A stretch of DNA of 42,386 bases from NCBI GenBank assembly GCA_001872725.1, contig MNWR01000108.1:1-42386 (forward strand), in the 5' to 3' direction. This document shows, piece after piece, positions 9,959 through 42,287 of the stretch (positions are counted from its first letter, which is position 1; every line of letters begins with the position of its first letter). The position numbers were made by a program, and so were the translations under genes. This stretch comes from Proteobacteria bacterium CG1_02_64_396 (lineage in GTDB: Bacteria > Pseudomonadota > MNWR01 > CG1-02-64-396). Below the pieces are notes generated by a model, which saw only the letters and a list, made by a program, of their open reading frames with translations, made no database searches and was not told where the DNA came from.

Positions 9959-10897
<939 letters not shown>

Positions 10898-10920
10898 TCG
10901 TCCGCTTCGGCAAGTAGAGG

Positions 10921-10948
10921 TCCGGGGGTGGGAGACCCCGCCCCCGGA
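10921..10948 (+). other. stem-loop between nifH and nifD
   Basis: TCCGGGGG pairs with CCCCCGGA, with an inner GGG/CCC pair, 23 bases past the nifH stop. There is no T-tract. Hairpins in this position are known to protect the nifH 3' end and attenuate read-through; that role is inferred here. Confidence 0.65.
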
Positions 10949-10984
10949 TCGATACCGAAGGAGGTGCCCGAGGGCGACGAATTA

Positions 10985-11008
10985 TCGCGCCGGGGGCGAC
11001 GCTCCAAC
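10985..11008 (-). repeat. REP element upstream of nifD (minus orientation)
   Basis: On the minus strand this reads GTTGGAGCGTCGCCC...GGCGCGA, matching the GTAGGAGCG(C/T)CGCCC...GGCGCGA units of the modE-modA array. A second member, in plus orientation, lies after nifD, so nifD is bracketed by inverted copies. Confidence 0.65.
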
Positions 11009-11035
11009 ACGTTTTCTCCATTCCATGAGGCGTTC

Positions 11036-11055
11036 GTCCACGCATGAGTGGCGCG
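11036..11055 (+). promoter_or_regulatory. 20-base leader element before nifD
   Basis: GTCCACGCATGAGTGGCGCG occurs here and, identical, at 12674-12693 before nifK. It ends 17 bases before the nifD start, immediately upstream of the Shine-Dalgarno (AGGAGG). CCAC and GTGG can pair around GCATGA. It also contains an ATG that opens a short frame (M-S-G-A) overlapping the nifD start. Confidence 0.6.
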
Positions 11056-11072
11056 CCCGTCAGGAGGTTGCC

Positions 11073-12551
11073 ATGTCCAGCATGTCCCGCGCCGAGACCG
11101 AAGCCCTGATCCAAGAGGTGCTTGAGGTCTATCCCGCCAAAGCCAAGAAAGACCGCGCTAAGCATTTGACGGTCAACGACTCCTCGCTTGAGAAGTCCAA
11201 CAAGTGCATCACCTCGAACAAAAAGTCGCTGCCCGGTGTGATGACCATCCGTGGTTGCGCCTACGCCGGTTCCAAGGGTGTGGTGTGGGGTCCCATCAAG
11301 GACATGATCCACATTTCCCACGGCCCGGTCGGTTGCGGCCAGTACTCCCGCGCCGGTCGTCGCAATTACTACGTCGGCACCACCGGGGTGAACGTCTTCG
11401 GCACGATGAACTTCACCTCCGACTTCCAAGAAAAAGACATCGTCTTCGGCGGCGACAAGAAACTGACCAAGCTGATCCAAGAGGTCGAGCAACTCTTCCC
11501 CTTGCACAAAGGGATCTCGGTGCAGTCCGAGTGCCCCATTGGGCTGATCGGCGACGACATCGAAGCGGTGGCCAAGAAGACCGCTGCCGAGCTCGAAAAG
11601 CCGGTTGTGCCGGTGCGCTGCGAAGGGTTCCGTGGCGTGTCGCAGTCGCTGGGTCACCACATCGCCAACGACGCCGTGCGCGATTGGGTGCTGGGCAACC
11701 GTGACGACCAAGCGTTCGAATCGACCCCTTACGACATCGCGATTTTGGGCGACTACAACATCGGCGGCGACGCCTGGTCGAGCCGGATCCTGCTCGAAGA
11801 GATGGGTCTGCGGGTCGTGGCGCAGTGGTCGGGCGACGGCACCATCGCCGAGATGGAAAACACCCCCAAGGTGAAGCTCAACGTCCTGCACTGCTACCGC
11901 TCGATGAACTACATCTCCCGTCACATGGAAGAGAAATACGGGATTCCATGGATGGAGTACAACTTCTTCGGCCCCAGCAAAACCGCCGAGAGTCTGCGCA
12001 AGATCGCCAGCTTCTTCGACGAGACCATCCAGGCCAACGCCGAGAAGGTGATCGAGAAGTACAAAGCGATGACCGACGCCGTGATCGCCAAGTACCGCCC
12101 CCGTCTCGAAGGCAAGAAGGTGATGCTCTACGTCGGAGGCCTGCGCCCCCGTCACGTCATCGGTGCCTACGAAGATCTGGGTATGGAGGTGGTCGGGACC
12201 GGTTACGAGTTCGCCCATAACGACGACTACGACCGGACCATCAAAGAGATGGGCGACGCCACCTTGATCTACGACGACGTCACCGGCTTTGAATTCGAAG
12301 AGTTCGTCAAGAAGGTCAAGCCCGACCTGATCGGCTCGGGGATCAAAGAGAAGTACATCTTCCAGAAGATGGGCATCCCCTTCCGTCAGATGCACTCCTG
12401 GGATTACTCCGGTCCGTACCACGGTTACGACGGCTTTGCCATCTTCGCCAAAGACATGGACCTGACCTTGAACAACCCCTGCTGGGGCAAGCTCAAGGCC
12501 CCCTGGAAGAAGTCCGAGGAAGAGACCGGCGCCGAAGTCGCCAGCGCTTAA
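11073..12551 (+). CDS. nifD: nitrogenase molybdenum-iron protein alpha chain
   Basis: Alpha subunit of the MoFe protein, which reduces N2 at the FeMo cofactor. The 492-residue product keeps the P-cluster cysteines ([30 protein letters not shown]), the cofactor cysteine in [10 protein letters not shown] and the cofactor histidine in [14 protein letters not shown]. The ATG at 11073 follows CAGGAGG and matches the family N-terminus. It lies 175 bp after nifH and 156 bp before nifK; both gaps carry a REP element and the same 20-base leader motif. Confidence 0.99.
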
Positions 12552-12568
12552 AGCACCGAAAAAAACGT

Positions 12569-12590
12569 GTAGGAGCGCCGCCCCGGCGCT
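12569..12590 (+). repeat. REP element downstream of nifD (plus orientation)
   Basis: GTAGGAGCGCCGCCCCGGCGC, a GTAG-led hairpin of the same family as the modE-modA array, 18 bases after the nifD stop. An imperfect inverted GC-rich segment follows to about 12640. Confidence 0.7.
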
Positions 12591-12673
12591 ATGCCCTCCC
12601 TTCAAGGGGGCAAAAAGCACCGGGCCGGGGCGGCCCTCCCGCAAAGCCCTCAAGTTTTCTCTTGTTTCCCGTT

Positions 12674-12693
12674 GTCCACGCATGAGTGGCGCG
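12674..12693 (+). promoter_or_regulatory. 20-base leader element before nifK
   Basis: Identical to the element before nifD (GTCCACGCATGAGTGGCGCG) and ends 14 bases before the nifK start, overlapping nothing but abutting the GGAAGGAGG Shine-Dalgarno. The preceding bases also share a TTTTCTC motif with the nifD leader. Confidence 0.6.
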
Positions 12694-12707
12694 GGAAGGA
12701 GGCCGTC

Positions 12708-14276
12708 ATGCAAAACGCCGAGAAGATCAAACCGTCGTATCCCCTGTTCCGGGATGCCGAATACGTCGACATGCTCGCTAAGAAGCAGGAGCAGTTCGAA
12801 GAGAAGGTGGACGCCGCCAAGATCCAAGAGGTCTTCGAGTGGACCACCACCACCGAGTACCAGACCCTGAACTTCGCTCGCGAAGCGTTGACCGTGAACC
12901 CGGCCAAGGCCTGTCAGCCCCTGGGCGCCGTCCTTTGCGCCCTGGGTTTTGAGAAGACCCTGCCCTACGTGCACGGCTCCCAGGGCTGCGTGGCCTACTT
13001 CCGCTCCTATTTCAACCGTCATTTCAAAGAGCCGGTCGCCTGTGTGTCGGACTCCATGACCGAAGATGCGGCGGTGTTCGGCGGCCAGAAAAACATGATG
13101 GACGGTCTTGAGAACGCCAAGGCGCTCTACAAGCCTGAGATGATTGCCGTTTCGACCACCTGCATGGCCGAGGTGATCGGCGACGACTTGAACGCCTTCA
13201 TCACCAACTCCAAGAAGGCTGGGCACATTCCCCAGGAATTCCCCACCCCCTTCGCCCACACCCCGAGCTTCGTCGGCAGCCACACCACCGGCTGGGACAA
13301 CATGTTCGAGGGGATCGCCCGCTACTTCACCCTCAACACCATGGAGGGCAAAGAGGTCGGCAGCAACGGCAAGATCAACATCGTTCCCGGCTTTGAGACC
13401 TACCTGGGCAACTACCGGGTGATGAAGCGGATGATGGACGAAATGGGCGTCGGTTTGTCTCTGCTCAGCGATCCCTCCGAGGTGCTCGACACCCCCGCCG
13501 ACGGCTCTTTCCGTATGTACGAAGGCGGCACCTCGCTCGACGAAATCAAGGATGCCCCCAACGGGATCGACACCCTGTTCTTGCAGCCCTGGCAGTCGGA
13601 TAAGTCTAAGAAATACGTCCAGAACACCTGGAAGCACGAAGCTACCGCCATTTCCATCCCGATGGGGCTGGAGGCGACCGATGAGTTCTTGATGGCGGTT
13701 TCCAAGCTGACCGGCAAGGAGATCCCCGCTTCGCTCGAAAAAGAGCGCGGTCGTCTGGTCGATATGCTGACCGACTCCCACGCCTGGCTGCACGGTAAGA
13801 AGTTCGCCGTCTACGGCGACCCCGACTTCGTGATGGGGATGACCAAGTTCCTGCTCGAAGTGGGCGCCGAGCCGACCGACGTGCTGGCCAACAACGGCAA
13901 CAAGCGTTGGGCGAAAGCGATGAAGGCGATTTTGGATGCCTCCCCCTTCGGGAAAGAGACCCAGGTCCATGTCGGCAAGGATCTCTGGCATTTCCGTAGC
14001 CTGATGTTCACCAACAAGCCCGATTTCATGATTGGCAACAGCTACGGCAAATTCATCCAGCGCGACACGCTGTACAAGGGCAAGGCGTTCGAAGTGCCCC
14101 TGATTCGCCTGGGCTTCCCGATTTTCGATCATCACCACCTGCACCGGCAGACCACCCTCGGTTACGAGGGGGCGATGCAAATCCTGACCACCTTGGTCAA
14201 CGCGGTGCTGGAGCGTTTGGACGAAGAGACCCGCGGGATGGGGACCACCGACTACAACTACGACCTGGTTCGCTAA
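12708..14276 (+). CDS. nifK: nitrogenase molybdenum-iron protein beta chain
   Basis: Beta subunit of the MoFe protein; shares the P-cluster with NifD. The 522-residue product has the three P-cluster cysteines in KACQPLGAVL, HGSQGCVAYFR and STTCMAEVIGDD, and the C-terminal family segment GYEGAMQILTTLVNAVLE. The ATG at 12708 follows GGAAGGAGG. It is third in the nifHDK operon; a cluster of hairpins that includes a true terminator follows the stop. Confidence 0.99.
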   Translation: MQNAEKIKPSYPLFRDAEYVDMLAKKQEQFEEKVDAAKIQEVFEWTTTTEYQTLNFAREALTVNPAKACQPLGAVLCALGFEKTLPYVHGSQGCVAYFRSYFNRHFKEPVACVSDSMTEDAAVFGGQKNMMDGLENAKALYKPEMIAVSTTCMAEVIGDDLNAFITNSKKAGHIPQEFPTPFAHTPSFVGSHTTGWDNMFEGIARYFTLNTMEGKEVGSNGKINIVPGFETYLGNYRVMKRMMDEMGVGLSLLSDPSEVLDTPADGSFRMYEGGTSLDEIKDAPNGIDTLFLQPWQSDKSKKYVQNTWKHEATAISIPMGLEATDEFLMAVSKLTGKEIPASLEKERGRLVDMLTDSHAWLHGKKFAVYGDPDFVMGMTKFLLEVGAEPTDVLANNGNKRWAKAMKAILDASPFGKETQVHVGKDLWHFRSLMFTNKPDFMIGNSYGKFIQRDTLYKGKAFEVPLIRLGFPIFDHHHLHRQTTLGYEGAMQILTTLVNAVLERLDEETRGMGTTDYNYDLVR

Positions 14277-23411: not shown

Positions 23412-24269
23412 TTAAACCGCCTCGACCAACCCCTTACCCGCCGCAGCCAGAAGATCCTCAACCGAGGCGTCGATCACCTCGATGCCCATCTTGGCGCAGA
23501 ACCGCTTTTCTTTGTCGTTGGCCCCCGGAATCAGGGCGTAGCCGGTCGGGCTCCCCGCGCCGTAGACGATGTCGGACATCACCATCCGTTCGGTGTCGCG
23601 GTTGAGCCGCAATCCGATGAAGAGGTACTGCTTGTTTTTGCGGTATTCCTTCAAAAACGAGGGGATGGCGAAGCCGCCCATCAGCTCGGTGATGTAATCG
23701 ACGTAGTCGGCATCCGAGGCAATGAAGGTCGGCTCGGGGGTTGGGGTTCCCAACGGTTTGAAGAGGATCGGCAGGGAGGGGTCAGCCTCGTCTTGGTTGA
23801 TCTCGGTGTAGCCGCTGCCGTCGTAGTGGTAGATCTTGAAGCGGTAGTCCTTACCGCTCATCCGGGCGATGCCGACAATCAAGGTGTGGGGGGTGGCCTT
23901 GTAGCTCTCTTGCAGTTGGGTGTCGCGGTTGATGTCGACCACATAGTGGGGTTTAAGCTCGGCGAGCCAGTCGTGCATGGGGGCCCGGCTCCACGCGGTG
24001 TTGGCGTAGGTCTGCACCAAAAAGCGCTGAATGAAACTACGCCCCTTCTTGAGCTCTTGATTCATGGCGGCCCGAGCAAATTCGTACATCAGCTTGGGGG
24101 CCATCGGCTTGCCGCCGTTCATCGCCAGAATCAGGGAATCGGAATCGGCGGGGATCGGGGCGCCGGTCTCGGCGTTGACCGAGCCGTTGAGCGCTTGGGC
24201 GCCGAGAAAGGGGACCAGGGTGCCGTTTTGCAGGCGGGCGATCAGTTCTGAAAGCGTTGTATCGGACAT
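23412..24269 (-). CDS. SIR2-like protein under NifA/sigma-54 control
   Basis: The 285-residue product resembles bacterial SIR2-like domains: GTLVPFLGAQALNG near the N-terminus (compare G-x-x-P-F-x-G-A), YVVDINRDTQLQESY (compare TTNYDxLLE) and YLFIGLRLNRDTERMVM (compare FIGxSLxDxxxR). Where NAD-hydrolysing relatives have K-x-H-G, this protein has LFKPLGT, so the catalytic His seems to be missing. I chose the ATG at 24269, behind AGGAGCG. A NifA site and a -24/-12 promoter lie upstream on the same strand. It probably works in nitrogen fixation; the biochemical role is unknown. Confidence 0.7.
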   Translation of the reverse strand: MSDTTLSELIARLQNGTLVPFLGAQALNGSVNAETGAPIPADSDSLILAMNGGKPMAPKLMYEFARAAMNQELKKGRSFIQRFLVQTYANTAWSRAPMHDWLAELKPHYVVDINRDTQLQESYKATPHTLIVGIARMSGKDYRFKIYHYDGSGYTEINQDEADPSLPILFKPLGTPTPEPTFIASDADYVDYITELMGGFAIPSFLKEYRKNKQYLFIGLRLNRDTERMVMSDIVYGAGSPTGYALIPGANDKEKRFCAKMGIEVIDASVEDLLAAAGKGLVEAV

Positions 24270-24306: not shown

Positions 24307-24322
24307 CGCAAGAAGGGGGCCA
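24307..24322 (-). promoter_or_regulatory. sigma-54 promoter of the SIR2-like gene
   Basis: On the minus strand: TGGCCC-N5-TTGCG, with GG and GC exactly 10 bases apart. It predicts a start near 24295, about 26 bases before the ATG. Confidence 0.72.
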
Positions 24323-24383: not shown

Positions 24384-24399
24384 TGTCGTAAAAACGACA
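24384..24399 (-). promoter_or_regulatory. NifA upstream activator sequence for the SIR2-like gene
   Basis: Exact TGT-N10-ACA (TGTCGTAAAAACGACA), itself a full palindrome, 62 bases upstream of the -24/-12 element on the minus strand. Confidence 0.75.
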
Positions 24400-24680: not shown

Positions 24681-24791
24681 GGCCGTTTCCTTCTCGATGC
24701 AAGAACCCAAATGGGCGGATTTATCGCGCATTCTCAAGCCAGATCCGGCGTGGCACCATCCCTCGAACCATAGTCGACACACGAGGCAAAC

Positions 24792-26528
24792 ATGAGACAG
24801 AGGGCGCGGTGGTTTTGGCTGGTGTTGGGGCTGTTTGGCGCCGCCGGGGCGGTCCAGGCGGATGAGGTCGAACCCCTGGCACCCCCCTCCAAGCGGATTG
24901 CGCTGGTGATCGGCAACGACCAGTACCGCTCCGTGACCCCTCTGCGCAACGCAGTGGCCGACTCCACCGCCGTCGCCAAGGCGCTGCAAGAGGCCGGGTT
25001 TACCGTGACCTTGCAGCACAACGTCGACCTTTCCTCCGTCAAGCAGGCGCTGCGGCAATTCAAGACGGCTCTCGCCGAGGGGGATGAGGCGCTCTTTTTC
25101 TTCTCGGGCCACGGGGTGCAGCTGGGCGGCGCCAACTACCTGCTGCCGGTCGACATCGTCAGCGACAGCGAAGATCAGGTTCGGGACGACGCGCTGGCGT
25201 TGCAACGGGTGCTCGACGACATGAGCGAACGTAAGGTCCGCTTCGCCTTGGCCATCGTCGACGCCTGCCGCGACAACCCTTTCGCCACCCAGGGGCGTGG
25301 CGCGGGCGGCCCCAAAGGGCTGGCCGCTACCCGGGCCGACAACGGCCAGTTGATCCTCTTTTCGGCAGGTTCAGGCCAGCAGGCGCTCGACAACCTGGGG
25401 GAGGACGACCGCAATCCCAACGGGGTCTTCACCCGGGTGTTCATCCAAGAGATGAATCGCCCCGGCGTCGAGGTGCACCAGGTGCTGCACAACGTGCGCA
25501 GTCAGGTGGTGCAACTGGCCAAGTCGGTGGGCCACGACCAGATGCCCGCCCTCTACGATCAGATGCAGGGCGGTTTTTACTTCCACACCTTGCAAGCGGG
25601 GCAGGGGGGGGAGGATGCCCCCGCCGCGGTGAAGGCCGAGATTCAAGCCTGGCAGGCGATTCAAAACAGCACCGACCCCGCCGACTTTCGCCGCTACGTC
25701 GAGCGCTACCCCAATGGCGCTTTTGTCCCCCTGGCCCGCATCAAGGGGCGCACCCTGGTGATCGACAACCGGTTCGAGCCCAAGATCGACATCTACACCG
25801 TCGCGGAGGTCGAGTTTGCCCTGGTGGAGATCCCCGGCGGCAGCTTCGAGATGGGTTTCACCCAGCAGTACCGCAACGCCGAGCAGCCACGCCACACCGT
25901 GACCCTGCCCCCCTTCCAAATGATGCAAACCGAGGTCACCCAGCGGTTGTGGCAGGCGGTGATGGGGAGCAACCCCAGCAAGCATCAGGGCGACGACCTG
26001 CCGGTGGAGCAGGTCTCTTGGCAGATGGCCCAGAGTTTTGTCGCCAAGCTCAACCAGATGACCGGTCAACACTTCAGCCTGCCCAGCGAATCTCAGTGGG
26101 AGTACGCAGCCCGGGCCGGAACCATCACCGATGCGTTCTGGGGCTCGGCGTATCTGCCGGATGAGAAGATCGGCCGCTACGCCTGGTTCAGCTTCAACAA
26201 CGACGACCAGACCCATCCGGTGGCCCAAAAGGAGCCCAACCCCTGGAAGCTCTACGATATGGCGGGCAACGTGTCCGAGTGGTGTCAGGATGCCTACCAC
26301 GAGAGCTACAAAGAGAGCCGAGGCAGGGGGGGATTGGCCCCCGACGACGGCACCCCTTGGGAGGCTAAAGGTTTGGAAAACTACAAGGTGGTGCGGGGGG
26401 GATTCGCCCATTTCTTGTGGCCCGGGCGGGGAGATATGACCTCCAGTGGCCGCGCCATGTGGTACGACAACCAGTCCTCACCCCGCATCGGTTTGCGTTT
26501 GGTGTTGTTGCCGCAGGTGACGCCATGA
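24792..26528 (+). CDS. secreted caspase-like protease with FGE-sulfatase domain (copy 1)
   Basis: 578 residues. Signal peptide ~1-23 (ending AVQA), caspase p20-like (peptidase C14) domain ~33-270 with catalytic His107 (FFSGHGVQ) and Cys159 (AIVDACRDNPF), a linker with the W-x-x-I-x-x-S-x-D-P...YP-x-G-x-F motif (~285-320), and an FGE-sulfatase/C-type-lectin-like domain ~335-575 (LVEIPGGSFEMG, LPSESQWEYAARAG, YDMAGNVSEWCQD, VVRGGF). It lacks the paired cysteines of formylglycine-generating enzymes, so oxidase activity is unlikely. Both caspase residues are present, so it may be an active periplasmic protease. It overlaps copy 2 by 4 bases (ATGA). Confidence 0.88.
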   Translation: MRQRARWFWLVLGLFGAAGAVQADEVEPLAPPSKRIALVIGNDQYRSVTPLRNAVADSTAVAKALQEAGFTVTLQHNVDLSSVKQALRQFKTALAEGDEALFFFSGHGVQLGGANYLLPVDIVSDSEDQVRDDALALQRVLDDMSERKVRFALAIVDACRDNPFATQGRGAGGPKGLAATRADNGQLILFSAGSGQQALDNLGEDDRNPNGVFTRVFIQEMNRPGVEVHQVLHNVRSQVVQLAKSVGHDQMPALYDQMQGGFYFHTLQAGQGGEDAPAAVKAEIQAWQAIQNSTDPADFRRYVERYPNGAFVPLARIKGRTLVIDNRFEPKIDIYTVAEVEFALVEIPGGSFEMGFTQQYRNAEQPRHTVTLPPFQMMQTEVTQRLWQAVMGSNPSKHQGDDLPVEQVSWQMAQSFVAKLNQMTGQHFSLPSESQWEYAARAGTITDAFWGSAYLPDEKIGRYAWFSFNNDDQTHPVAQKEPNPWKLYDMAGNVSEWCQDAYHESYKESRGRGGLAPDDGTPWEAKGLENYKVVRGGFAHFLWPGRGDMTSSGRAMWYDNQSSPRIGLRLVLLPQVTP

Positions 26529-28210
26529 AGCTGGGACGATGGGGGGTCGGCATCTGGCTGATGGTGCTTGTGGCGGCGTTGGGTCCGGTGGCATTTCAAG
26601 CCGAGGCGGCGGGCAAACGGGTGGCCCTGGTCATCGGCAACAACCTGTACCGCAGCATCGCCCCGCTGCGCAACGCGGTGGCCGATGCCGATGCGGTGGC
26701 CCAAGCGTTGGCGCGGGCGGGGTTCCAAGTGATGGCGCTGCACGACCTGGACCGGGCCGCCATGCTCAAGGCGGTGGGTGATTTCAAAGCGGGGGTGGCG
26801 CCGGGGGACGAGGCCCTCTTTTACTACTCGGGCCACGGGGTCCAGATGGGGGGGGTCAACTACCTGCTGCCGGTCGACATCGTCAGCGACAGCGCCGACC
26901 AGGTGAAGAACGACGCGCTGGGGCTGCAACAGCTCCTCGACGAAATGCGTCGGCAACAGGCCCGCTTCGCCCTGGCCATCATCGACGCCTGCCGCGACAA
27001 CCCCTTTCAGGGTAAGGGGCGCAGCATGGGCGGCGGGCGGGGTTTGGCCGCCACCACCCCCCCCAGCGGGCAGATGATCCTCTTCTCGGCGGGGGCCGGT
27101 CAGGAGGCGCTCGACCGGCTGAGCGAACAGGACACCCATCCCCACGGCCTTTTTACCAGGGTGTTGCTCGATGAGATCGACAAGCCAGGGGTGGAGATCC
27201 ACACCCTGCTCAGCGGTTTGCGCAACCGGGTGGCGGCGCTGGCCGAGGGGGTCCACCGCGATCAGATGCCGGCGCTGTTCGATCAGATGCAGGGCGACTT
27301 CTATTTTCATCCCCTCGCCGACGAAGCGGGCAGGTTGGGCCCCGATCTCGAATTCTGGAATAGGATCAAAAACAGCGACGATCCTCAGGGATATCGGCAA
27401 TACCTCGACCGTTTCCCCACGGGGGCGTTTGCCTCGCTGGCCCGAGTGAAGGCGGCCCAAGGGGGGGGCGCCTCTGCCACCCACAGCCGTGGGCGCAGCT
27501 ACATGGTGGGTCAGGTGGTCTTCGAAATGGTCCCGATTCCGGGGGGGCGCTTCATCATGGGCTCCGACCGGGACTTCCCCTACGAGCCCCACCCGGTCGA
27601 GCTAGCCCCCTTTCAGATGATGCGCACCGAGGTGACCCAGGGGTTGTGGGCGGCGGTGATGGGAGATAACCCCAGCCGGTTCAAGGGCAACAACCTCCCG
27701 GTTGAAAACGTCGATTGGCGTCAGGTGCAGACGTTTGTCACCAGACTGAACACCCTGACCGGCCTGAGTTTTCAGCTCCCCAGCGAGGCGCAGTGGGAGT
27801 TTGCCGCCCGGGCGGGCAGCGCCACCACTTGGTATTGGGGTAACGATGCGCGCCAGACCGGCGATTACGCCTGGTACCAAGACAACAGCGACGAAGCAAC
27901 CCACCCGGTCGGTTTGAAAAAACCCAACCCTTGGGGGCTCTACGACATGAGCGGCAATGTGGCCGAGTGGTGCCTGGATGCCTACCACGAACGGTACCAA
28001 GGGGGGGTGTTCGGCGACGACGCTCCCAGCGACGGCAGCCCCTGGCTTAAGGATGGGTTCAAAGATTGGAAGGTGGTGCGGGGGGGCTCTTTCAGTGACA
28101 AGGATTCGTCCGGGCACCCCAATGCCATGACCTCCGCCGCTCGCGGCAGCGCTCCCCCTCAGTTCAAGAGGGAAAACCGGGGGTTTCGTTTGGTCTTAAG
28201 CGGCGAATGA
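26525..28210 (+). CDS. secreted caspase-like protease with FGE-sulfatase domain (copy 2)
   Basis: 561 residues with the same plan as copy 1: signal peptide ~1-28, caspase domain with His104 (YYSGHGVQ) and Cys156 (AIIDACRDNPF), the linker repeat (FWNRIKNSDDPQGY...FPTGAF), and an FGE-like domain from ~345 (MVPIPGGRFIMGS, LPSEAQWEFAARAG, YDMSGNVAEWCLD, VVRGGSF). There are no FGE catalytic cysteines. The ATG at 26525 overlaps the copy 1 stop, so the two are translationally coupled. Eight G residues at 27461-27468 lie in the interdomain linker. Confidence 0.88.
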   Translation: MKLGRWGVGIWLMVLVAALGPVAFQAEAAGKRVALVIGNNLYRSIAPLRNAVADADAVAQALARAGFQVMALHDLDRAAMLKAVGDFKAGVAPGDEALFYYSGHGVQMGGVNYLLPVDIVSDSADQVKNDALGLQQLLDEMRRQQARFALAIIDACRDNPFQGKGRSMGGGRGLAATTPPSGQMILFSAGAGQEALDRLSEQDTHPHGLFTRVLLDEIDKPGVEIHTLLSGLRNRVAALAEGVHRDQMPALFDQMQGDFYFHPLADEAGRLGPDLEFWNRIKNSDDPQGYRQYLDRFPTGAFASLARVKAAQGGGASATHSRGRSYMVGQVVFEMVPIPGGRFIMGSDRDFPYEPHPVELAPFQMMRTEVTQGLWAAVMGDNPSRFKGNNLPVENVDWRQVQTFVTRLNTLTGLSFQLPSEAQWEFAARAGSATTWYWGNDARQTGDYAWYQDNSDEATHPVGLKKPNPWGLYDMSGNVAEWCLDAYHERYQGGVFGDDAPSDGSPWLKDGFKDWKVVRGGSFSDKDSSGHPNAMTSAARGSAPPQFKRENRGFRLVLSGE

Positions 28211-28325
28211 TTATTTTCAGGCCCCCACTGACGTGGGCTCCAGGGATGGATCGCATCGTCCGCCGCTTCATGGGCCAGGGCTTCATCGACCTGGTTTACG
28301 AGGCAAACGTTTTCGAGGCTTCGCC

Positions 28326-30062
28326 ATGCTGCGATGGGTAGGAATGGTACTGGGGGTGGGTTGGGCGCTGTCGGCCCTGGCCGGAGATCTGCCCGACAAC
28401 ATGGGGCGGGGGGTTCAGGTATCGGCCGCGGGCCCCAAACGGGTCGCCCTGGTCATCGGCAACCACCACTACCAAACCCTGGAGTCGCTGCCGGTCGCCG
28501 GGGCCGACGCCGAGGCGCTGGCTCGACGGCTCGAAGAGACGGGGTTTGAGGTGCTGCGTCGCAACGACCTCGATACCGGCGCCATGAAAAAAGCGGTACG
28601 CCAATTCAAGGCAGCGCTGTCGCCCGGCGACGAGGCGATCTTCGCCTTCGCGGGGTACGGGGTGGCGGAGGAGGGGGTCGATTACCTGCTGCCGGTCGAC
28701 ATCGTCGGCGAGAGCATCGACCGAATACGCGACGATGCCCTGTCGCTGCAACGGGTGCTCGACGATCTGCAAGACAAACAGCCCCGTTTCGCCCTGGCCA
28801 TCGTCGACACCTGCCGTGGCAACCCCTTTGTGGGGGGGGCGACCGGGCTGGGGCATGAACGGGGCATGGCGGCGATCAGTGCTGGCAACGGACAGATGAT
28901 CCTGTTTTCGGCGGGGGTGGGTCAGGCGGCGCTGGAGCGCACCGGGACCGACGACGCAACGGCGCAAAGCCTGTTCGTGCGGGCGCTGGTCGAGGCGATG
29001 GGGCAACCGGGTGTGGAGATCCGCCCCCTGGTGCGCCAGGTGCGCGACCGGGTGGCGGCGTTGGCAGCGCAGTCGGGGGGGGAGCAATTCCCGGCGCTCT
29101 ACGATCAGGCCCAGGGCGACTTCTTTTTTTATCCCCCGGCGGCGGGCAGCGCGGCGGGCGTCCCCCAAGGGGTGGGCCCTCTGGAGCAGGAGTTCTGGGA
29201 TGCCATCGCTCAGAGCGACGACCCGGCCCTCTATCTGGCCTACCTCGAACAGTACCCCAATGGCTTTTATGCAGAGCAAGCGCGGCAGAAGGGGGGGGTG
29301 CAGACGATGCCCGCGCGGGAACAAGAGCCCCAGGTCAAGGGCGAGCGTTTCACCGTGCGCGGCATCCGTTTCGAGATGGTCGAGATTCCGGGGGGCAATT
29401 TTTTCATGGGGGGCGACGATCTGTGGGCCTCCTCAGAACAACAGCCACGCCACGAGGTCGCCCTGGCCCCCTTTCAAATCATGCAAACCGAGGTGACCCA
29501 AGCGCTGTGGCAGGCGGTGATGGGCTACAACGAACAGGAATACAAAGGGGACAACCTGCCGGTTTATCAGGTGACGTGGCGGGATGCTCAGCGCTTTGCC
29601 GACAAGCTCAGCCAGATGACCGGCAAGCGTTTTCGACTGCCCAGCGAGTCCCAGTGGGAGTACGCGGCGCGGGGGGGGACCACCTCGGTCTGGTTTTGGG
29701 GCGACGATGAAAGCCAAATGCCCCAATACGCCTGGATTCCTGAAAACAGCGACAAACAACCCCATCCAGTGGCGCAGAAACGTCCCAATCCCTGGGGGCT
29801 TTACGACATGACGGGCAACGCCTGGGAGTGGTGCCAGGATGTTTTCCACGAAGACTATCGGGGTGGGATGTTCAACCGTCGACCCGACGACGGCAGCGCC
29901 TGGGAGAGCGAGGGTGTGGAGGATGAACGGGTGATTCGCGGCGGGGCGTTCGATGCCATGTTCAATCTCGATTTTCGCTCCGACGCCCGCAGCGGCAGGG
30001 ACCAGGGGCAACATTGGGCGGGGGTCAGGCTGGTGTGGATCCCCGGCGAGGGGGGGGAGTGA
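28326..30062 (+). CDS. caspase-like pseudoprotease with FGE-sulfatase domain (copy 3)
   Basis: 578 residues. Signal peptide ~1-20, caspase-like domain ~35-275, linker repeat (FWDAIAQSDDPALY...YPNGFY) and FGE-like domain from ~350 (MVEIPGGNFFMGG, LPSESQWEYAARGG, YDMTGNAWEWCQD, VIRGGAF). The catalytic Cys163 is present (IVDTCRGNPF), but the catalytic His is Tyr111 (codon TAC at 28656) in FAFAGYGVAEEG, so this copy is probably not an active protease. I chose the ATG at 28326, where the signal peptide starts; a frame from 28233 adds residues unlike the paralogues. A 115-bp gap separates it from copy 2; its stop overlaps the copy 4 start. Confidence 0.87.
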   Translation: MLRWVGMVLGVGWALSALAGDLPDNMGRGVQVSAAGPKRVALVIGNHHYQTLESLPVAGADAEALARRLEETGFEVLRRNDLDTGAMKKAVRQFKAALSPGDEAIFAFAGYGVAEEGVDYLLPVDIVGESIDRIRDDALSLQRVLDDLQDKQPRFALAIVDTCRGNPFVGGATGLGHERGMAAISAGNGQMILFSAGVGQAALERTGTDDATAQSLFVRALVEAMGQPGVEIRPLVRQVRDRVAALAAQSGGEQFPALYDQAQGDFFFYPPAAGSAAGVPQGVGPLEQEFWDAIAQSDDPALYLAYLEQYPNGFYAEQARQKGGVQTMPAREQEPQVKGERFTVRGIRFEMVEIPGGNFFMGGDDLWASSEQQPRHEVALAPFQIMQTEVTQALWQAVMGYNEQEYKGDNLPVYQVTWRDAQRFADKLSQMTGKRFRLPSESQWEYAARGGTTSVWFWGDDESQMPQYAWIPENSDKQPHPVAQKRPNPWGLYDMTGNAWEWCQDVFHEDYRGGMFNRRPDDGSAWESEGVEDERVIRGGAFDAMFNLDFRSDARSGRDQGQHWAGVRLVWIPGEGGE

Positions 30063-31807
30063 TGGGGATGTTCCACCGCGCTGCCGCATCGGTGCGCCCG
30101 GCTCGGCGGGCTCTGTGGATCGGGATGTTGCTGTTGGGGCTGGGCTCCTCGGCTCTGGCCGACGATCTGGGTCGAGGGGTGCAGATCGCCGCCAGCGGTC
30201 CCAAACGGGTGGCGTTGGTGATCGGCAACGGCCTCTACGACCACCTGGATTCGCCCCCGAGCGCCGTGGCCGACGCCGAGACCATGGCCCAAGGGTTTGA
30301 GGCGGCCGGTTTCGAGACCACCTTGCGACTCGATCTGGACCTGTCGGCCCTCAAAAGGGTGGTCCGGCAGTTCAAGGCGAGACTGTCGCCGGGGGACGAG
30401 GCGCTGTTTTTCTTTGCCGGACATGGGGTGCAGCTGGAGGGGGCCAACTACCTGCTGCCCACCGACATCGTCGGCGACAGCGAAGAGCAGGTGATGGACG
30501 AGGCGCTGGCGTTGCAACGGGTGCTCGACGACCTGACGCAGCAACAGGTTCGGCTGTCGCTGGCCATCGTCGCCGCCTGCCGCGACAACCCTTTTGCCGC
30601 CAAGGGACGGGGGCTCGGCGGGGGGCGGGGGCTGGCTCCGGTGGGGGCCGCCAACGGCCAAATGATTGTCTTTGCCGCAGGTTCGGGGCAGCGGGCCCTC
30701 GACCGGGTGGGGGAGGGGGACGTCAACCCCAACAGCCTGTTCGTTCGGGTCTTCGCCGACGAGATGGCCCGTCCGGGGGTGGAGATCCGCCAACTGGTGC
30801 GCAACGTGCGCAGCCGGGTGGTGGCGGCGGCCAAGAGTGTCGGGGCCGAGCAGGTGCCCGCCTTTTACGACCAGATGGAGGGCGATTTCTACTTCCGCTT
30901 GGCCTCTTCAGAGGGGGAGACCACCCGCACCAACGCCGCAGCCCAACTTGAAATGGCGTTCTGGGCCTCCATCGAGCAGAGCGACGATCCGGCCTATTTT
31001 CAGGCCTACCTGAAGCAATACCCGGCCGGATCGTTCGTCGATCGAGCGCGAAAAATGGTGGCCCCCCAGGGGGGGGTGTCGCGGCTGCCGGTGGGAGAGA
31101 GGTGGGATCCCTATCGCTTTGTCGTGGGGGGGGCGGCGTTCGAGATGGTGCCGCTGGCGGGGGGCAGCTTTACCTTGGGCAATAAGGAGCTCGACCACGC
31201 CGATTTGGTCGCCCAGATCACCCTTCCCCCTTTTCAGATCATGCGCACCGAAGTGACTCAGGCCCTCTTCAAAGCGGTCATGGGCAATCAAGGCGATTGG
31301 CCCGTGGGGGACGAGTATCCGGTCCTCATGACCTGGGCAGGCGCCCAGACGTTTATCGCCAGACTCAACACCCTGACCGGCCAGCAATTCCGTATACCCA
31401 GCGAAGCGCAGTGGGAATATGCGGTTCGGGCCGGCACCGAAAGCCAGTGGTTTTGGGGCCGCAACGGTCAAGAGGGGGACGATTATGCCTGGTGGAGCCA
31501 GAACAGCGGCGGCGAGATCCACCCGGTGGCGCAGAAAAAGCCCAATCCCTGGGGGCTGTACGACATGAGCGGCAACGTGCGCGAGTGGTGCCAGGACACA
31601 TTCCATTTTTCATACGATGGGATCCCCCCCGACGGTTCCCCGTGGGAGGTCGACGGCGAGCGGGGCACGAGGGTTGTCCGCGGGGGGGGCAATCGCAGTC
31701 CCTACATTTCGTATCTTGCCTCCAGTTGGCGCGAAGCTGGCGATATCTCGACCGGGGCCGGTCTGCGCCTGATTCGCATGGTGGTCGCCACCGATCCCGT
31801 GCGGTAA
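30062..31807 (+). CDS. caspase-like protease with FGE-sulfatase domain (copy 4)
   Basis: 581 residues. Signal peptide ~1-33, caspase domain with His121 (FFAGHGVQLEG) and Cys173 in AIVAACRDNPF, where the Asp two residues before the Cys in the other copies is Ala. The linker repeat (FWASIEQSDDPAYF...YPAGSF) and FGE-like domain from ~365 (MVPLAGGSFTLGN, IPSEAQWEYAVRAG, YDMSGNVREWCQD, VVRGGG) follow. The N-terminal region with DLGRGVQIAASGPKRVALVIGN (in part) is closest to copy 3. The ATG overlaps the copy 3 stop (TGATG). The nifE control region starts 65 bp downstream. Confidence 0.87.
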   Translation: MGMFHRAAASVRPARRALWIGMLLLGLGSSALADDLGRGVQIAASGPKRVALVIGNGLYDHLDSPPSAVADAETMAQGFEAAGFETTLRLDLDLSALKRVVRQFKARLSPGDEALFFFAGHGVQLEGANYLLPTDIVGDSEEQVMDEALALQRVLDDLTQQQVRLSLAIVAACRDNPFAAKGRGLGGGRGLAPVGAANGQMIVFAAGSGQRALDRVGEGDVNPNSLFVRVFADEMARPGVEIRQLVRNVRSRVVAAAKSVGAEQVPAFYDQMEGDFYFRLASSEGETTRTNAAAQLEMAFWASIEQSDDPAYFQAYLKQYPAGSFVDRARKMVAPQGGVSRLPVGERWDPYRFVVGGAAFEMVPLAGGSFTLGNKELDHADLVAQITLPPFQIMRTEVTQALFKAVMGNQGDWPVGDEYPVLMTWAGAQTFIARLNTLTGQQFRIPSEAQWEYAVRAGTESQWFWGRNGQEGDDYAWWSQNSGGEIHPVAQKKPNPWGLYDMSGNVREWCQDTFHFSYDGIPPDGSPWEVDGERGTRVVRGGGNRSPYISYLASSWREAGDISTGAGLRLIRMVVATDPVR

Positions 31808-31872
31808 AGGCCGCCACAACACTCCCCCTCCCCTCGGGGGGGGCTCCCCTGCATTGGCTTTCCCCCGACAAT

Positions 31873-31888
31873 TGTCACATTCGCGACA
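31873..31888 (+). promoter_or_regulatory. NifA upstream activator sequence for nifE
   Basis: Exact TGT-N10-ACA (TGTCACATTCGCGACA), 62 bases upstream of the -24 GG of the nifE promoter. Confidence 0.78.
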
Positions 31889-31933: not shown

Positions 31934-31949
31934 TGGCACACCCCTGGCA
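31934..31949 (+). promoter_or_regulatory. sigma-54 promoter of nifE
   Basis: TGGCAC-N5-TGGCA, with GG and GC exactly 10 bases apart. It predicts a start near 31961 and a leader of about 36 bases. Confidence 0.83.
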
Positions 31950-36116: not shown

Positions 36117-36259
36117 GGGCCGTACTTGTGTTCCGGGTCTTTCTGGGGATCGCAACCGCCCTGTGGGGCGGCCCGCCCAGGGAACCCGCAAAGGTTTGGC
36201 GCTGCGCCTGATCGAGCCGCCCCTGCTGCTGAGCAGGCGTGGTTATGAGGAATAACGCG

Positions 36260-36472
36260 ATGAACGACGAAGAACTAAAAGCGCTGCAAAAAGAGGTGCG
36301 TAAGAAAAAGCGGATCGCCAGCGAGTGGGCCAGCCAGCTCCACGATCTGGTCGAGGATCGCTTGCCCGCCGGATTCGAAGAGATTCCCGGCATTGCCCAG
36401 TCGACCTACGACGCCTGCCAGGATTGGGCCGAGGCCAACGCTCGGCTGATCGCGGCGGGCGGCGGCCAGTAA
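36260..36472 (+). CDS. DUF683/CCE_0567 family nif protein
   Basis: A 70-residue, charged, helical-hairpin protein: NDEELKALQKEVRKKKRIASEW at the start and IAQSTYDACQDWAEANARL near the end. The family (CCE_0567-like, DUF683) sits beside nifX/DUF269 in many diazotrophs and has been described as a small metalloprotein. I chose the ATG at 36260, where homology begins; an ATG at 36239 adds seven residues but AGGA lies better for either. FdxB follows after 43 bp. Confidence 0.88.
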   Translation: MNDEELKALQKEVRKKKRIASEWASQLHDLVEDRLPAGFEEIPGIAQSTYDACQDWAEANARLIAAGGGQ

Positions 36473-36515
36473 ATCGAGCATCCACCCCATCCCACTTGCA
36501 CGAGGGTTGAACACT

Positions 36516-36818
36516 ATGAGCGACGTGATTACCGGTATTACCCGTGGCGGCAGCGCCTGGACCCCGCAATTCATCAAGGCTGTCGACCCTGAAAACTGCA
36601 TCGGTTGCGGCCGCTGCTACAAGGTCTGCCCCCGCGACGTCTTCGACCTGGTCGAGAAATCCGAGCTGGTCGAGATGGACGACGACGATTTCGACGATGA
36701 CGACAACGCCATGGTCATGGCGATTAAAGATGCACTGGACTGCATCGGCTGCCTGGCCTGCTCCAAGGTTTGCCCCAAAGAGTGCCACAGCCACGCCCCG
36801 GCGGCGGTTGGGGCCTAA
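36516..36818 (+). CDS. fdxB: nif-specific ferredoxin III
   Basis: A 100-residue 2[4Fe-4S] ferredoxin of the FdxB (ferredoxin III, nif-specific) type. Cluster motifs are CIGCGRCYKVCP (residues ~28-39) and CIGCLACSKVCPKECHSH (~75-92), with an acidic insert DDDDFDDDDN between them that is typical of the subfamily. It probably donates electrons in cofactor synthesis or to nitrogenase. The ATG at 36516 follows GAGGG; a TTG at 36507 is in frame but less likely. Confidence 0.93.
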   Translation: MSDVITGITRGGSAWTPQFIKAVDPENCIGCGRCYKVCPRDVFDLVEKSELVEMDDDDFDDDDNAMVMAIKDALDCIGCLACSKVCPKECHSHAPAAVGA

Positions 36819-36821
36819 GTC

Positions 36822-37358
36822 GTGGGTCGTGTGGTCGATGCGGCGGGGGCGTTTGGCAATCTGCCAGCCGGGGTTGCCGACGTGGTGGCCCAGGCCATCG
36901 CCCTGCGCGGCACCGAGCCCGACCGCGCCGAAATGCTGATGTGGAAGGCCCAGGCCGCCGATCCCACCAGCCTCGAAATGTACGTGGGGCTGGCCAAGTT
37001 CTACCTCCACGCCGGACGCCTCAAACAGTCCCGCATTGCCCTTGATCTGGGCTACGGCGAGGCGTCGCGGCAGGGACGGATTTCGGGCGATTGGCGCGAT
37101 CTGACCGCAGAGGAGCTGCGTTTGGCTGGGGATGTGGGCCGCAAGGCGCTGCTCTTCATGAAGGGGCGGGCTTTCATTCGCCTTCGCCAAGGTCATGTGG
37201 AGGAGTCATGGGCGCTGCTCGACCGCTTGGCCGAGCTCGACCCCGACGATGGGGTGGGGGCCGAGACGATTCGGGCTTTGGCGCGGGCCTGCGGACCTGA
37301 AGAGGGGGAGCAGGCCGAGCGGCTTGGCCCGGAAGCAGGGCTACGCCAGGCGAGTTAA
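36822..37358 (+). CDS. TPR-like protein, nif-associated, function unknown
   Basis: A 178-residue soluble protein starting at GTG 36822, only 3 bases after fdxB, so it is in the same operon. Helical repeats of tetratricopeptide type are visible: AAGAFGNLPAGVADVV, AEMLMWKAQAADPTSLEMYVG (in part), LAKFYLHAGRLKQSRIALDLGYG and GRAFIRLRQGHVEESWALLD. I do not recognise a named family. A scaffold or assembly role in nitrogen fixation is possible from context only. The Shine-Dalgarno is weak, and translation may be coupled to fdxB. Confidence 0.75.
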   Translation: MGRVVDAAGAFGNLPAGVADVVAQAIALRGTEPDRAEMLMWKAQAADPTSLEMYVGLAKFYLHAGRLKQSRIALDLGYGEASRQGRISGDWRDLTAEELRLAGDVGRKALLFMKGRAFIRLRQGHVEESWALLDRLAELDPDDGVGAETIRALARACGPEEGEQAERLGPEAGLRQAS

Positions 37359-37821
37359 GGGTGTGGGGTAGGGGCGCGGGGAAGATCGACTCTGCCTTCG
37401 CCGTCGAAAAAACCGGCTACCACGAAACACACGAAACCACACGAAAAGTGCGGCGGAACCTATAAAGGCGTCATCCCGTGACGGCGCAGCCGGACCCGGA
37501 ATCCAATTTGATCCTCGGGACGCCTTAGTTTTGTGGTTTGCGCGATTTTTGGAGGGACGTGCTCCGTCGTGGCCGCCTTTGAATTTAAGACCGAAAGGCG
37601 GACGAGACGCAGCGTTTCCCTCCAGGGGGCCGACGCTTCGTTCGGCCGGTAAACAAAAGCCCGCTACCCAAAGCAAGGCGACCATTGCCGCCCCGAAAAA
37701 ATGCAATATTTGTTGGAGCGTCGTTTTTCCACCTGTCCTGAGCCTCCCGTTCATCCTGAGCCTGTCGAAGGACGAAGAACCCGGAGGAGCGAGGGGACTG
37801 AAAACCAGCAAGAGCGATCCC
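37359..37821. repeat. 463-base repeat-rich, gene-free gap
   Basis: The gap holds a GTCATCCCG...CCCGGAATC copy at about 37469-37504 (related to 35311), a hairpin-rich segment with GGAGGGACGTGCTCC at about 37551-37565, and a palindrome TTCATCCTGAGCCTGTCGAA plus GGACGAA at about 37753-37779, a repeat type widespread in bacteria. I see no gene in it; a frame that crosses it belongs to the next gene by read-through only. Confidence 0.6.
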
Positions 37822-38256
37822 ATGCCCGACACCCATCCCCCCCGCATCATCCTGGCCCACAAGCAATCGACCAGCGGGCGCGTGCGCTTTTTGTTGATGC
37901 CCCACACCGGGGTCTGCGGCGACGACCCGCTGCCCGGCGGTGCCGCCCTGCGCGACGAAGACGAGGCGCAGGCGCAGGCGGTGTTGCACCATCCGGCTGC
38001 CGTGGCCAAAGAGGCGGCCGAGAAGCTGGGGTTGGTCCCCGGCGACATCGCCCCCGAGGCGGGATTCCACGAGGTGGTCGACACCGCGACCGGGCCGCTG
38101 TCGCTCTTTCTCGGCCTCTTCACCGCCATCGACCCCCCCTTCGCCGCCGCCGAGGCGGTCGAGGCCTGTTTCATCCCCCTGACCGAAATCCGGATCCTCC
38201 CCCCCATGGAGCAGGAGCTGGCACGACGGGCCTACGTCCACCTGATGGAAGGTTAA
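37822..38256 (+). CDS. conserved-looking hypothetical protein after fdxB block
   Basis: A 144-residue soluble acidic protein that I do not recognise. It starts PDTHPPRIILAHKQSTSGRV and has a cluster of Ala/Glu-rich helices (EAQAQAVLHHPAAVAKEAAEKLG) and a LPPMEQELARRAYVHLMEG end. The position after the nif operon and directly before a GNAT gene (10 bp) suggests it is co-transcribed with that gene. The ATG at 37822 has AAGAGCG upstream. The frame continues upstream through the repeats without a plausible start. A role in nitrogen fixation is possible but unproven. Confidence 0.65.
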   Translation: MPDTHPPRIILAHKQSTSGRVRFLLMPHTGVCGDDPLPGGAALRDEDEAQAQAVLHHPAAVAKEAAEKLGLVPGDIAPEAGFHEVVDTATGPLSLFLGLFTAIDPPFAAAEAVEACFIPLTEIRILPPMEQELARRAYVHLMEG

Positions 38257-40966: not shown

Positions 40967-42287
40967 GTGCAACATCGTTTCTGTAAAAAGCCCTGGTCTC
41001 TTCTATTCGGCAGCCGGGATCAGATTTTGAAGTTCAGGTAGATTTTGCCGGCCATCCACTCCTCGTCGAATTCGGCGAGGAGTGCGCTGACCAGGCGTAG
41101 GCACGCGTCTGGATTGGGGAAGATAGAGGCGACGCGAGTTCGGCGTTTAAGCTCCCGATTGATGCGTTCCAGTCCATTGGTGGTGCGTATCCTGACTCTG
41201 TGGTGAGCCGGGAAGTCGAATGCAGCCAGCCCCTCCGGTAGGTTTTCCTCGGCCCATGCCGCCAGCTTGGGGGCCTCCTTGTGCCACTGTTCGACGGCTT
41301 GCTCCAGCAGACGCTGCGCCTCGTCCTTGTCGGGGGCGTTGAAGATGGCGCGGATGCGCTGGGCGACGGCCGGGCGCTGTTCGAGACGGGCCACGTAGCC
41401 CACCGCGTTCTGTTGAAGGTGGAACTGGCAGCGTTGCCAGGGGACGCTGGGGAAGACGGCACGCCGGGCCGCCTTGAGGCCAGTGTGGCTGTCGGCCACG
41501 ATGAGTTTCACCCCACACAAACCCCGGCGTACCAGGGAGTCGAGGAAGCCGCGCCAATGAATCTCGGCCTCGGAAAGCTCCACCGAAACCCCCAGCACCC
41601 GGCGATGCCCCTCGGCGGTGACGCCCACCGCGACCAAGACCGCGCAATCGACGATCTGCCCCTCGGTACGCACCCGTTCATAACGGGCATCGAGAAACAC
41701 GTAGGGGGTTGGCCCCAAAGGGCGCTGGCGCCAAGCGGCGAGCCCCTCGTCGAGAGTCTTGGCGGCCCGGCTGACCTGCGTCGAGGAGATCGCCACCTGC
41801 GGTCCCACCAGTTTCTGCAACACCGTGACGACCTTTCGGGTCGAGACCCCTTGGACGTACATCTCGGCCAAGGCAAGGTTCACGGCCCGTTCGGTACGAG
41901 ACCCTTTTTCCAGGGCGCTGGGGTAAAAGCTGCTGTCGCGCACCTGGGGTACCTCGACGGTGATCTCACCAAGACGGGTCGTCATGGTTTTGGGTTTGAA
42001 GCCGTTGGCATAGCCTAGGCGCTCGCTGGTACGTTCGTAGGGGTTGGCGCCCAAATGTTGCGCCCGTTCGATCTTGCAAGCCTCGTTGATCAGAATTCGA
42101 AGCGCCTCTCCGGCGCCATCCAGGCCCTGATTCAACAACGCCGAAAAAGCCCCCTCCAAGGGGTGGCTGGGGTCTACGTGTACGGCCATGACGTTTCTCC
42201 TTCAAGGGTGAGTGAAAAGCGGCATCAAAGAAGAACCTAAGACCCCGGCCAACAGGGAAGGCAGAAATTACAGAATGAAGGTTGCAC
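40967..42287. mobile_element. IS256-family insertion sequence
   Basis: The element of about 1.32 kb is bounded by imperfect inverted repeats: GTGCAACATCGTTTCTGTAA at the left and, on the minus strand, GTGCAACCTTCATTCTGTAA at the right (16 of 20 bases match). It contains one complete transposase gene. I see no target-site duplication in the flanks (GAAGGGATT on the left, TAACCGCCA on the right), so it may be old or rearranged. Confidence 0.75.
41020..42189 (-). CDS. IS256-family (mutator-type) transposase
   Basis: 389 residues, the usual length for IS256 transposases. The DDE residues lie in VFLDARYERVR, LIVADSHTGLK and TTNGLERINRELKRRT; the typical PWQRCQFHLQQN segment and HLGANPYERTSERLGYANGF (in part) N-terminal block are present. 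AAGGAG lies 8 bases before the ATG. The frame is intact, so the element may still be active. Confidence 0.95.
   Translation of the reverse strand: MAVHVDPSHPLEGAFSALLNQGLDGAGEALRILINEACKIERAQHLGANPYERTSERLGYANGFKPKTMTTRLGEITVEVPQVRDSSFYPSALEKGSRTERAVNLALAEMYVQGVSTRKVVTVLQKLVGPQVAISSTQVSRAAKTLDEGLAAWRQRPLGPTPYVFLDARYERVRTEGQIVDCAVLVAVGVTAEGHRRVLGVSVELSEAEIHWRGFLDSLVRRGLCGVKLIVADSHTGLKAARRAVFPSVPWQRCQFHLQQNAVGYVARLEQRPAVAQRIRAIFNAPDKDEAQRLLEQAVEQWHKEAPKLAAWAEENLPEGLAAFDFPAHHRVRIRTTNGLERINRELKRRTRVASIFPNPDACLRLVSALLAEFDEEWMAGKIYLNFKI

Follow-up and report, generated by a model that had tools for sequence, protein, structure and literature searches.

Four tandem caspase-FGE proteins with predicted export signals, two of them altered in the active site, beside nif genes in a proteobacterial genome

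Four consecutive genes for caspase-like proteins with predicted export signals lie among the nif genes of Proteobacteria bacterium CG1_02_64_396, and their position raises the question of whether they serve nitrogen fixation or lie there by chance, and of what such a set of proteins might do. The window analysed here, the whole stretch of 42,386 bases, is one entire contig of a 2.94-Mb genome that is held in 109 contigs, is 98.5% complete and encodes six Peptidase_C14 proteins and six FGE domains, four of each in this block. The reading we favour, in which we have about even confidence as a whole, is that the genes, here called c1 to c4, encode exported ligand-binding proteases, c1 and c2 being probably active and c3 and c4 pseudo- or specificity-altered forms, and that they stand beside nif coincidentally.

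All four genes are transcribed in the same direction. Two predicted exported orthocaspase-FGE proteins of 578 and 561 aa are encoded by c1 (24792..26528, plus strand) and c2 (26525..28210, plus strand), which share an ATGA overlap (26525-26528, plus strand). A 115-bp gap (28211..28325) separates this pair from c3 (28326..30062, plus strand; 578 aa), a predicted exported pseudo-orthocaspase-FGE protein, and c4 (30062..31807, plus strand; 581 aa), again a predicted exported orthocaspase-FGE protein; c3 and c4 overlap by one base (TGATG, at 30062, plus strand). These assignments come from Pfam matches, active-site comparison and codons, and for c3 also from an AlphaFold2 model. Each protein is built of an export signal, a Peptidase_C14 domain, a helical linker and an FGE/C-type-lectin domain, with matches to Peptidase_C14 (E 1e-24 to 3e-32) and FGE-sulfatase (E 2e-35 to 7e-46) that are far beyond chance in all four, and with the linker motif W-x-x-I...YP-x-G. 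The N-termini are of Sec type, with a charged start followed by a hydrophobic core, whose best 12-residue mean hydropathy is 1.9-2.7, and then an A-x-A-like site, and a hydropathy scan found no strongly hydrophobic 19-residue segment downstream of the signal. From inspection of these signals and their hydropathy, with cleavage sites judged by eye, we infer that c1 to c4 are exported. The original prediction described four genes of near-equal length with ATGA/TGATG overlaps and a 115-bp gap, each with signal peptide, caspase-like domain, linker and FGE domain, and it agrees with the lengths, coordinates, Pfam matches, hydropathy and motif given here; the point that it overlooked is the altered active sites of c3 and c4.

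In the window, nifH, nifD and nifK (10031-14276) are followed by a NafY-like gene, a gene for an LRV-FeS protein, modA/modB-like genes, a porin gene and a NifX-like gene, and then by a SIR2-like gene and a TfoX_C gene (both on the minus strand), c1 to c4, nifE and nifN. The SIR2-like gene and nifE flank the block as had been described, with the addition of the TfoX_C gene between the SIR2-like gene and c1. A SIR2-like gene (27% identity) also precedes nifH at locus L081. Downstream of nifN are two minus-strand open frames without a Pfam match (36243-37196 and 37341-38207); weak relatives of the first occur close to nifN in several further genomes. A Mutator-family transposase gene (41020-42189) lies at the contig end.

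Placed between the nifHDK/mod genes and nifEN, the block could be a nif-linked protease-sensor system of the periplasm that is co-expressed with nif and targets envelope proteins while N2 is being fixed. Its base composition is that of the other genes in the window, which would suit such a role; since it matches its neighbours in this respect the block is not a recent foreign insert, a possibility that we rejected on this ground. The nearby SIR2-like gene, whose start codon is at 24269 on the minus strand, is preceded by a UAS-like perfect palindrome (TGTCGTAAAAACGACA, 24384-24399) and a -24/-12-like element (24307-24322, minus strand), and these sequence elements would fit NifA control of that gene. 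For the block itself, however, a pattern scan found no credible NifA UAS or -24/-12 promoter upstream of c1, in keeping with the earlier remark that no NifA or sigma-54 site is visible there. What the scan gave was a TGGCAC half-site (24751-24756, in an element at 24751..24765, plus strand) without the -12 GC, found once against 1.8 times expected by chance, and this, judged from its sequence, is not a credible sigma-54 promoter. By contrast, nifE has promoter-like elements of its own downstream of the block, namely a NifA-type UAS, TGT-N10-ACA (31873..31888, plus strand), and a sigma-54 -24/-12-like element with one mismatch (TGGCACACCCCTGGCA, 31934..31949, plus strand); between c4 and these elements the pattern scan placed a possible hairpin or terminator with a weak T tract (31835..31851, plus strand). 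The window has 5 matches to the UAS where 3.7 would be expected, and it is therefore their position and not their number that lends support.

Gene order elsewhere in the phylum also argues against a link with nitrogen fixation. We identified nifE at 1e-100 or better in 12 other genomes, and no caspase gene was found in the flank examined around nifE at any of the 12 loci. The stretch also includes nifD or nifK at nine of them; two loci (G029 and G017) have a short stretch upstream of nifE and thus add little. The caspase homologue loci examined carry no nif genes, comparison with the window's proteins showed none within about 12 kb of the Bradyrhizobium and Sinorhizobium pSymA relatives, and no link between caspases and nif clusters was found in the literature. 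The block is therefore absent beside nif in all relatives sampled, and together with the separate nifE promoter this speaks against the tie to nitrogen fixation that the original prediction had proposed. We consider it likely that the block is independent of nitrogen fixation, and a nif-linked sensor system highly doubtful. In the genome collection compared, the window's class has this one member, with relatives sampled from elsewhere in the phylum, so functional proximity to nif could still hold in this lineage; for the relatives sampled, the suggested link between caspases and nitrogen fixation is removed.

The tandem duplication and the domain content of the block are almost certain, and we read it as a lineage-specific expansion of a single orthocaspase-FGE gene whose product is predicted to be exported. 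Identity to c1 is 55% for c2, 50% for c3 and 51% for c4, and the FGE-domain tree unites the four in a clade (97/95) and places as its sister (100/98) a caspase-FGE protein on contig C48 of the same genome. Within the block, the caspase tree joins c1 with c2 (82/45) and c3 with c4 (90/80) at weak to moderate support, and a GRGVQ motif ahead of the caspase domain occurs in c3 and c4 only, but the FGE tree pairs c1 with c3 (81/82), which conflicts with the caspase-tree pairing. In a survey of homologues, 11 of 399 genomes of the phylum had matches at 1e-58, and, with up to three candidates counted per genome, none besides the source genome showed more than two. A plasmid search gave distant relatives only, among them the Bradyrhizobium and Sinorhizobium pSymA loci, and a contig search gave a single distant relative, from Comamonadaceae. 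The protein on contig C48 (C48:53888-55864 in G000; L048:7888-9864), a fifth caspase-FGE protein, has a very divergent caspase domain (SDSCFSG) but an FGE domain that is sister to those of c1 to c4, which suggests module exchange.

A p20 caspase domain is found in each of the four proteins (Pfam; MALT1-like fold), and its active site is in a different state from copy to copy. The catalytic H107 (CAC 25110-25112) and C159 (25266-25268) and the S1-pocket Asp D157 are all intact in c1, as are H104, C156 and D154 in c2. In c3 the catalytic His is replaced by Tyr111 (TAC 28656-28658), with Cys163 and the pocket Asp161 retained; the His-Cys dyad, present in c1, c2 and c4, is thereby broken, and c3 is classed as a pseudo-orthocaspase. 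The fourth copy retains His121 and Cys173, and its S1-pocket Asp, two residues before the catalytic Cys, has become Ala171 (GCC 30572-30574), sequence comparison showing this DxC Asp in c1, c2 and c3. Outside the source genome, 18 of 18 caspase domains compared contain His, Cys and the DxC Asp; 17 of these rows belong to genomes of the phylum, and a Comamonadaceae assembly supplied the other. The DxC Asp is probably equivalent to Asp211 of T. brucei MCA2, which accommodates basic side chains (PMC6426788). These residues suggest that c1 and c2 are probably active proteases, with cleavage after Arg or Lys to be expected from the family, that c3 is very probably inactive in proteolysis, and that c4 should be altered in its P1 preference or weakened.

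At caspase positions conserved in the family, c3 departs at 8 and c4 at 5 of 40 sites, against one each in c1 and c2 (13/80 vs 2/80 for the two pairs; Fisher p 0.005, the sites not being independent). The seven further departures in c3 argue for real divergence over a single-base assembly error in the His codon. That c3 and c4 have changed faster may reflect decay instead of new function, and these departures, with the long FGE branch of c4 (0.91), are what would be expected if both were decaying, functionless duplicates and only c1 and c2 mattered. However, the frames of c3 and c4 are open over their full length, their Pfam scores are still high, the c3-c4 overlap is retained, and orthocaspases with Tyr for His form conserved clades elsewhere (PMC6426788). 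The AlphaFold2 model of c3, built with 33 sequences, is likewise confident in both domains (mean pLDDT 85.7; linkers at low confidence), which suggests that the fold is not visibly destroyed by the loss of His; the mutual placement of the two domains in this model is not confident (pTM 0.50), and a model of c1 built from 11 sequences was poor at the C-terminal end of the FGE domain. On balance we regard mere decay of c3 and c4 as unlikely.

The FGE fold of c1 to c4 is evident from Pfam and from structural matches: the c3 model matches the folds of MALT1, PvdO and TvpA, with PvdO as the best structural match, and the best solved relatives of the FGE domains are TvpA, PvdO and true FGE, TvpA being nearest in sequence. 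The Pfam match to FGE-sulfatase, and the role assumed for caspase-FGE fusions in the literature (PMC3501461; PMC4933709), would be consistent with a catalytic domain that matures a sulfatase or oxidises another target, the caspase being a processing module. In alignments, however, true FGE has its active-site Cys pair directly after RGGS, and no Cys is present in this stretch of c1 to c4, so that the pair is absent; each whole protein has two Cys, the caspase catalytic Cys and one in an EWC motif. The sole PF00884 protein found in the genome lacks the sulfatase C/S-x-P-x-R motif, and sulfatase maturation was rejected for the missing Cys pair together with the failure to find a motif-bearing sulfatase. 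Catalysis by the FGE domain thus appears extremely improbable. With the active-site cysteines absent, the domain would be a ligand binder and not a formylglycine-generating enzyme, as its relatives of the TvpA type suggest, which bind their ligand through a site formed by the C-terminal stretch (PMC6328139). Among block members, FGE identity is 33-42% in the C-terminal stretch vs 52-60% in the core, the greatest difference lies in the C-terminal ligand-facing loop, and the C-terminal loops vary in length. None of the four keeps the W after RGG, which at least 85% of the FGE rows from elsewhere retain.

Published diversity systems built on FGE-type domains of this kind need a reverse transcriptase. 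No RVT_1 match was found in this genome (98.5% complete), the 3' end of c2 has no second copy that could be a template repeat, and differences between the copies in the C-terminal stretch show no excess of changes involving A. A diversity-generating retroelement (DGR) was rejected on these three counts; the fold with a divergent C-terminus expected of a DGR variable protein is present, but reverse transcriptase and template repeat are not, and the variety would thus arise from duplication. The array might nonetheless be part of an immunity or conflict system, with FGE domains that serve as variable sensors of antigens, in the manner of DGR-linked or MoxR/STAND systems. The sequence proximity to TvpA, itself a DGR protein, the unlike C-terminal loops and the occurrence of both caspase and FGE domains in such systems (PMC7159879; PMC10907252) are in line with this, and a decoy role has been proposed for inactive enzyme domains in bacterial conflict systems (PMC7159879). 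PADLOC gave a match to its caspase model only. Besides the results on reverse transcriptase, template and A changes, two observations speak against such a system: no NTPase partner was recognised among the genes scanned beside the block, and c1 to c4 have export signals, which sets them apart from most such systems described. We therefore consider an immunity role decidedly unlikely.

In the reading that we prefer, that of exported ligand-binding proteases, each protein would be exported by Sec and would fold into a caspase domain and a C-type-lectin-type FGE domain with a flexible helical linker between them; the domains and fold are taken from sequence and model, and export from the signal sequence. 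The FGE domain would bind a ligand that is either extracellular or part of the cell envelope, and since the C-terminal loop is different in each copy, each probably has its own. Bound or nearby proteins would then be cleaved by c1 and c2 after Arg or Lys, as should follow from the His-Cys dyad and acidic S1 pocket that both keep, and c3, presumed dead, and c4, altered or weakened, may serve as regulators, as decoys or as partners that only bind. The original prediction had already suggested an export-directed set of caspases with divided roles, and the active-site states and FGE loops that differ among the copies strengthen that suggestion. A more elaborate, and rather unlikely, version is a two-tier system of active c1 and c2 and translationally coupled pseudo- or altered c3 and c4, each with its own lectin-type specificity, in which the pseudo-members compete for ligand or gate it before the active ones cut. 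If true, this would be a parallel to protease-pseudoprotease control outside the cytoplasm of a bacterium, in which duplication and not a retroelement had made the receptors diverse.

Parts of this arrangement are already known. Metacaspase/orthocaspase-FGE-sulfatase fusions have been reported (33 sequences, 4.9%; Asplund-Samuelsson et al. 2012, PMC3501461) and have the order seen here, caspase N-terminal and FGE C-terminal, but the block differs from them in its four tandem copies, export signals, two altered active sites and missing FGE Cys pair. Pseudo-orthocaspases in which Tyr replaces His are likewise on record, and Cyanobacteria and Alphaproteobacteria account for 90% of them (Klemencic et al. 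2019, PMC6426788); the window's singleton class falls outside these large classes. The cyanobacterial YS and YN types retain pocket Asp residues (PMC6426788); c3 shows the same change of His to Tyr with the pocket Asp kept but differs in keeping the Cys (Y-C type), whereas c4 is the reverse case, with the dyad kept and the pocket Asp lost. Among solved structures, TvpA (2y3c), a DGR variable protein of Treponema denticola, shares the FGE-subtype C-type-lectin fold and C-terminal diversity (variable region: PMC6328139), but the block has no retroelement, diverged by gene duplication and is fused to a caspase. PvdO (5hha) has, as in the block, an FGE-like fold without a sulfatase role, but it is a stand-alone pyoverdine-maturation protein, and the block proteins lie far below the PvdO family cut-off. 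The closest solved caspase fold is the paracaspase MALT1 (3v4o; c3 TM-score 0.82 normalised by target), a human cytoplasmic protein that differs in its partner domains and has about 20% identity.

A tandem array, predicted to be exported, that joins intact, dyad-broken and pocket-broken copies was not found in the literature examined, and such an array is a natural experiment on the role of bacterial pseudo-orthocaspases. The FGE part of bacterial fusions was assumed to be sulfatase-activating; here it is without that chemistry and has the look of a ligand binder. A caspase-only gene and a caspase-FGE gene lie head to head on opposite strands in each of two genomes that belong to one genus (L044:8244-11227 and L064:7904-10886).
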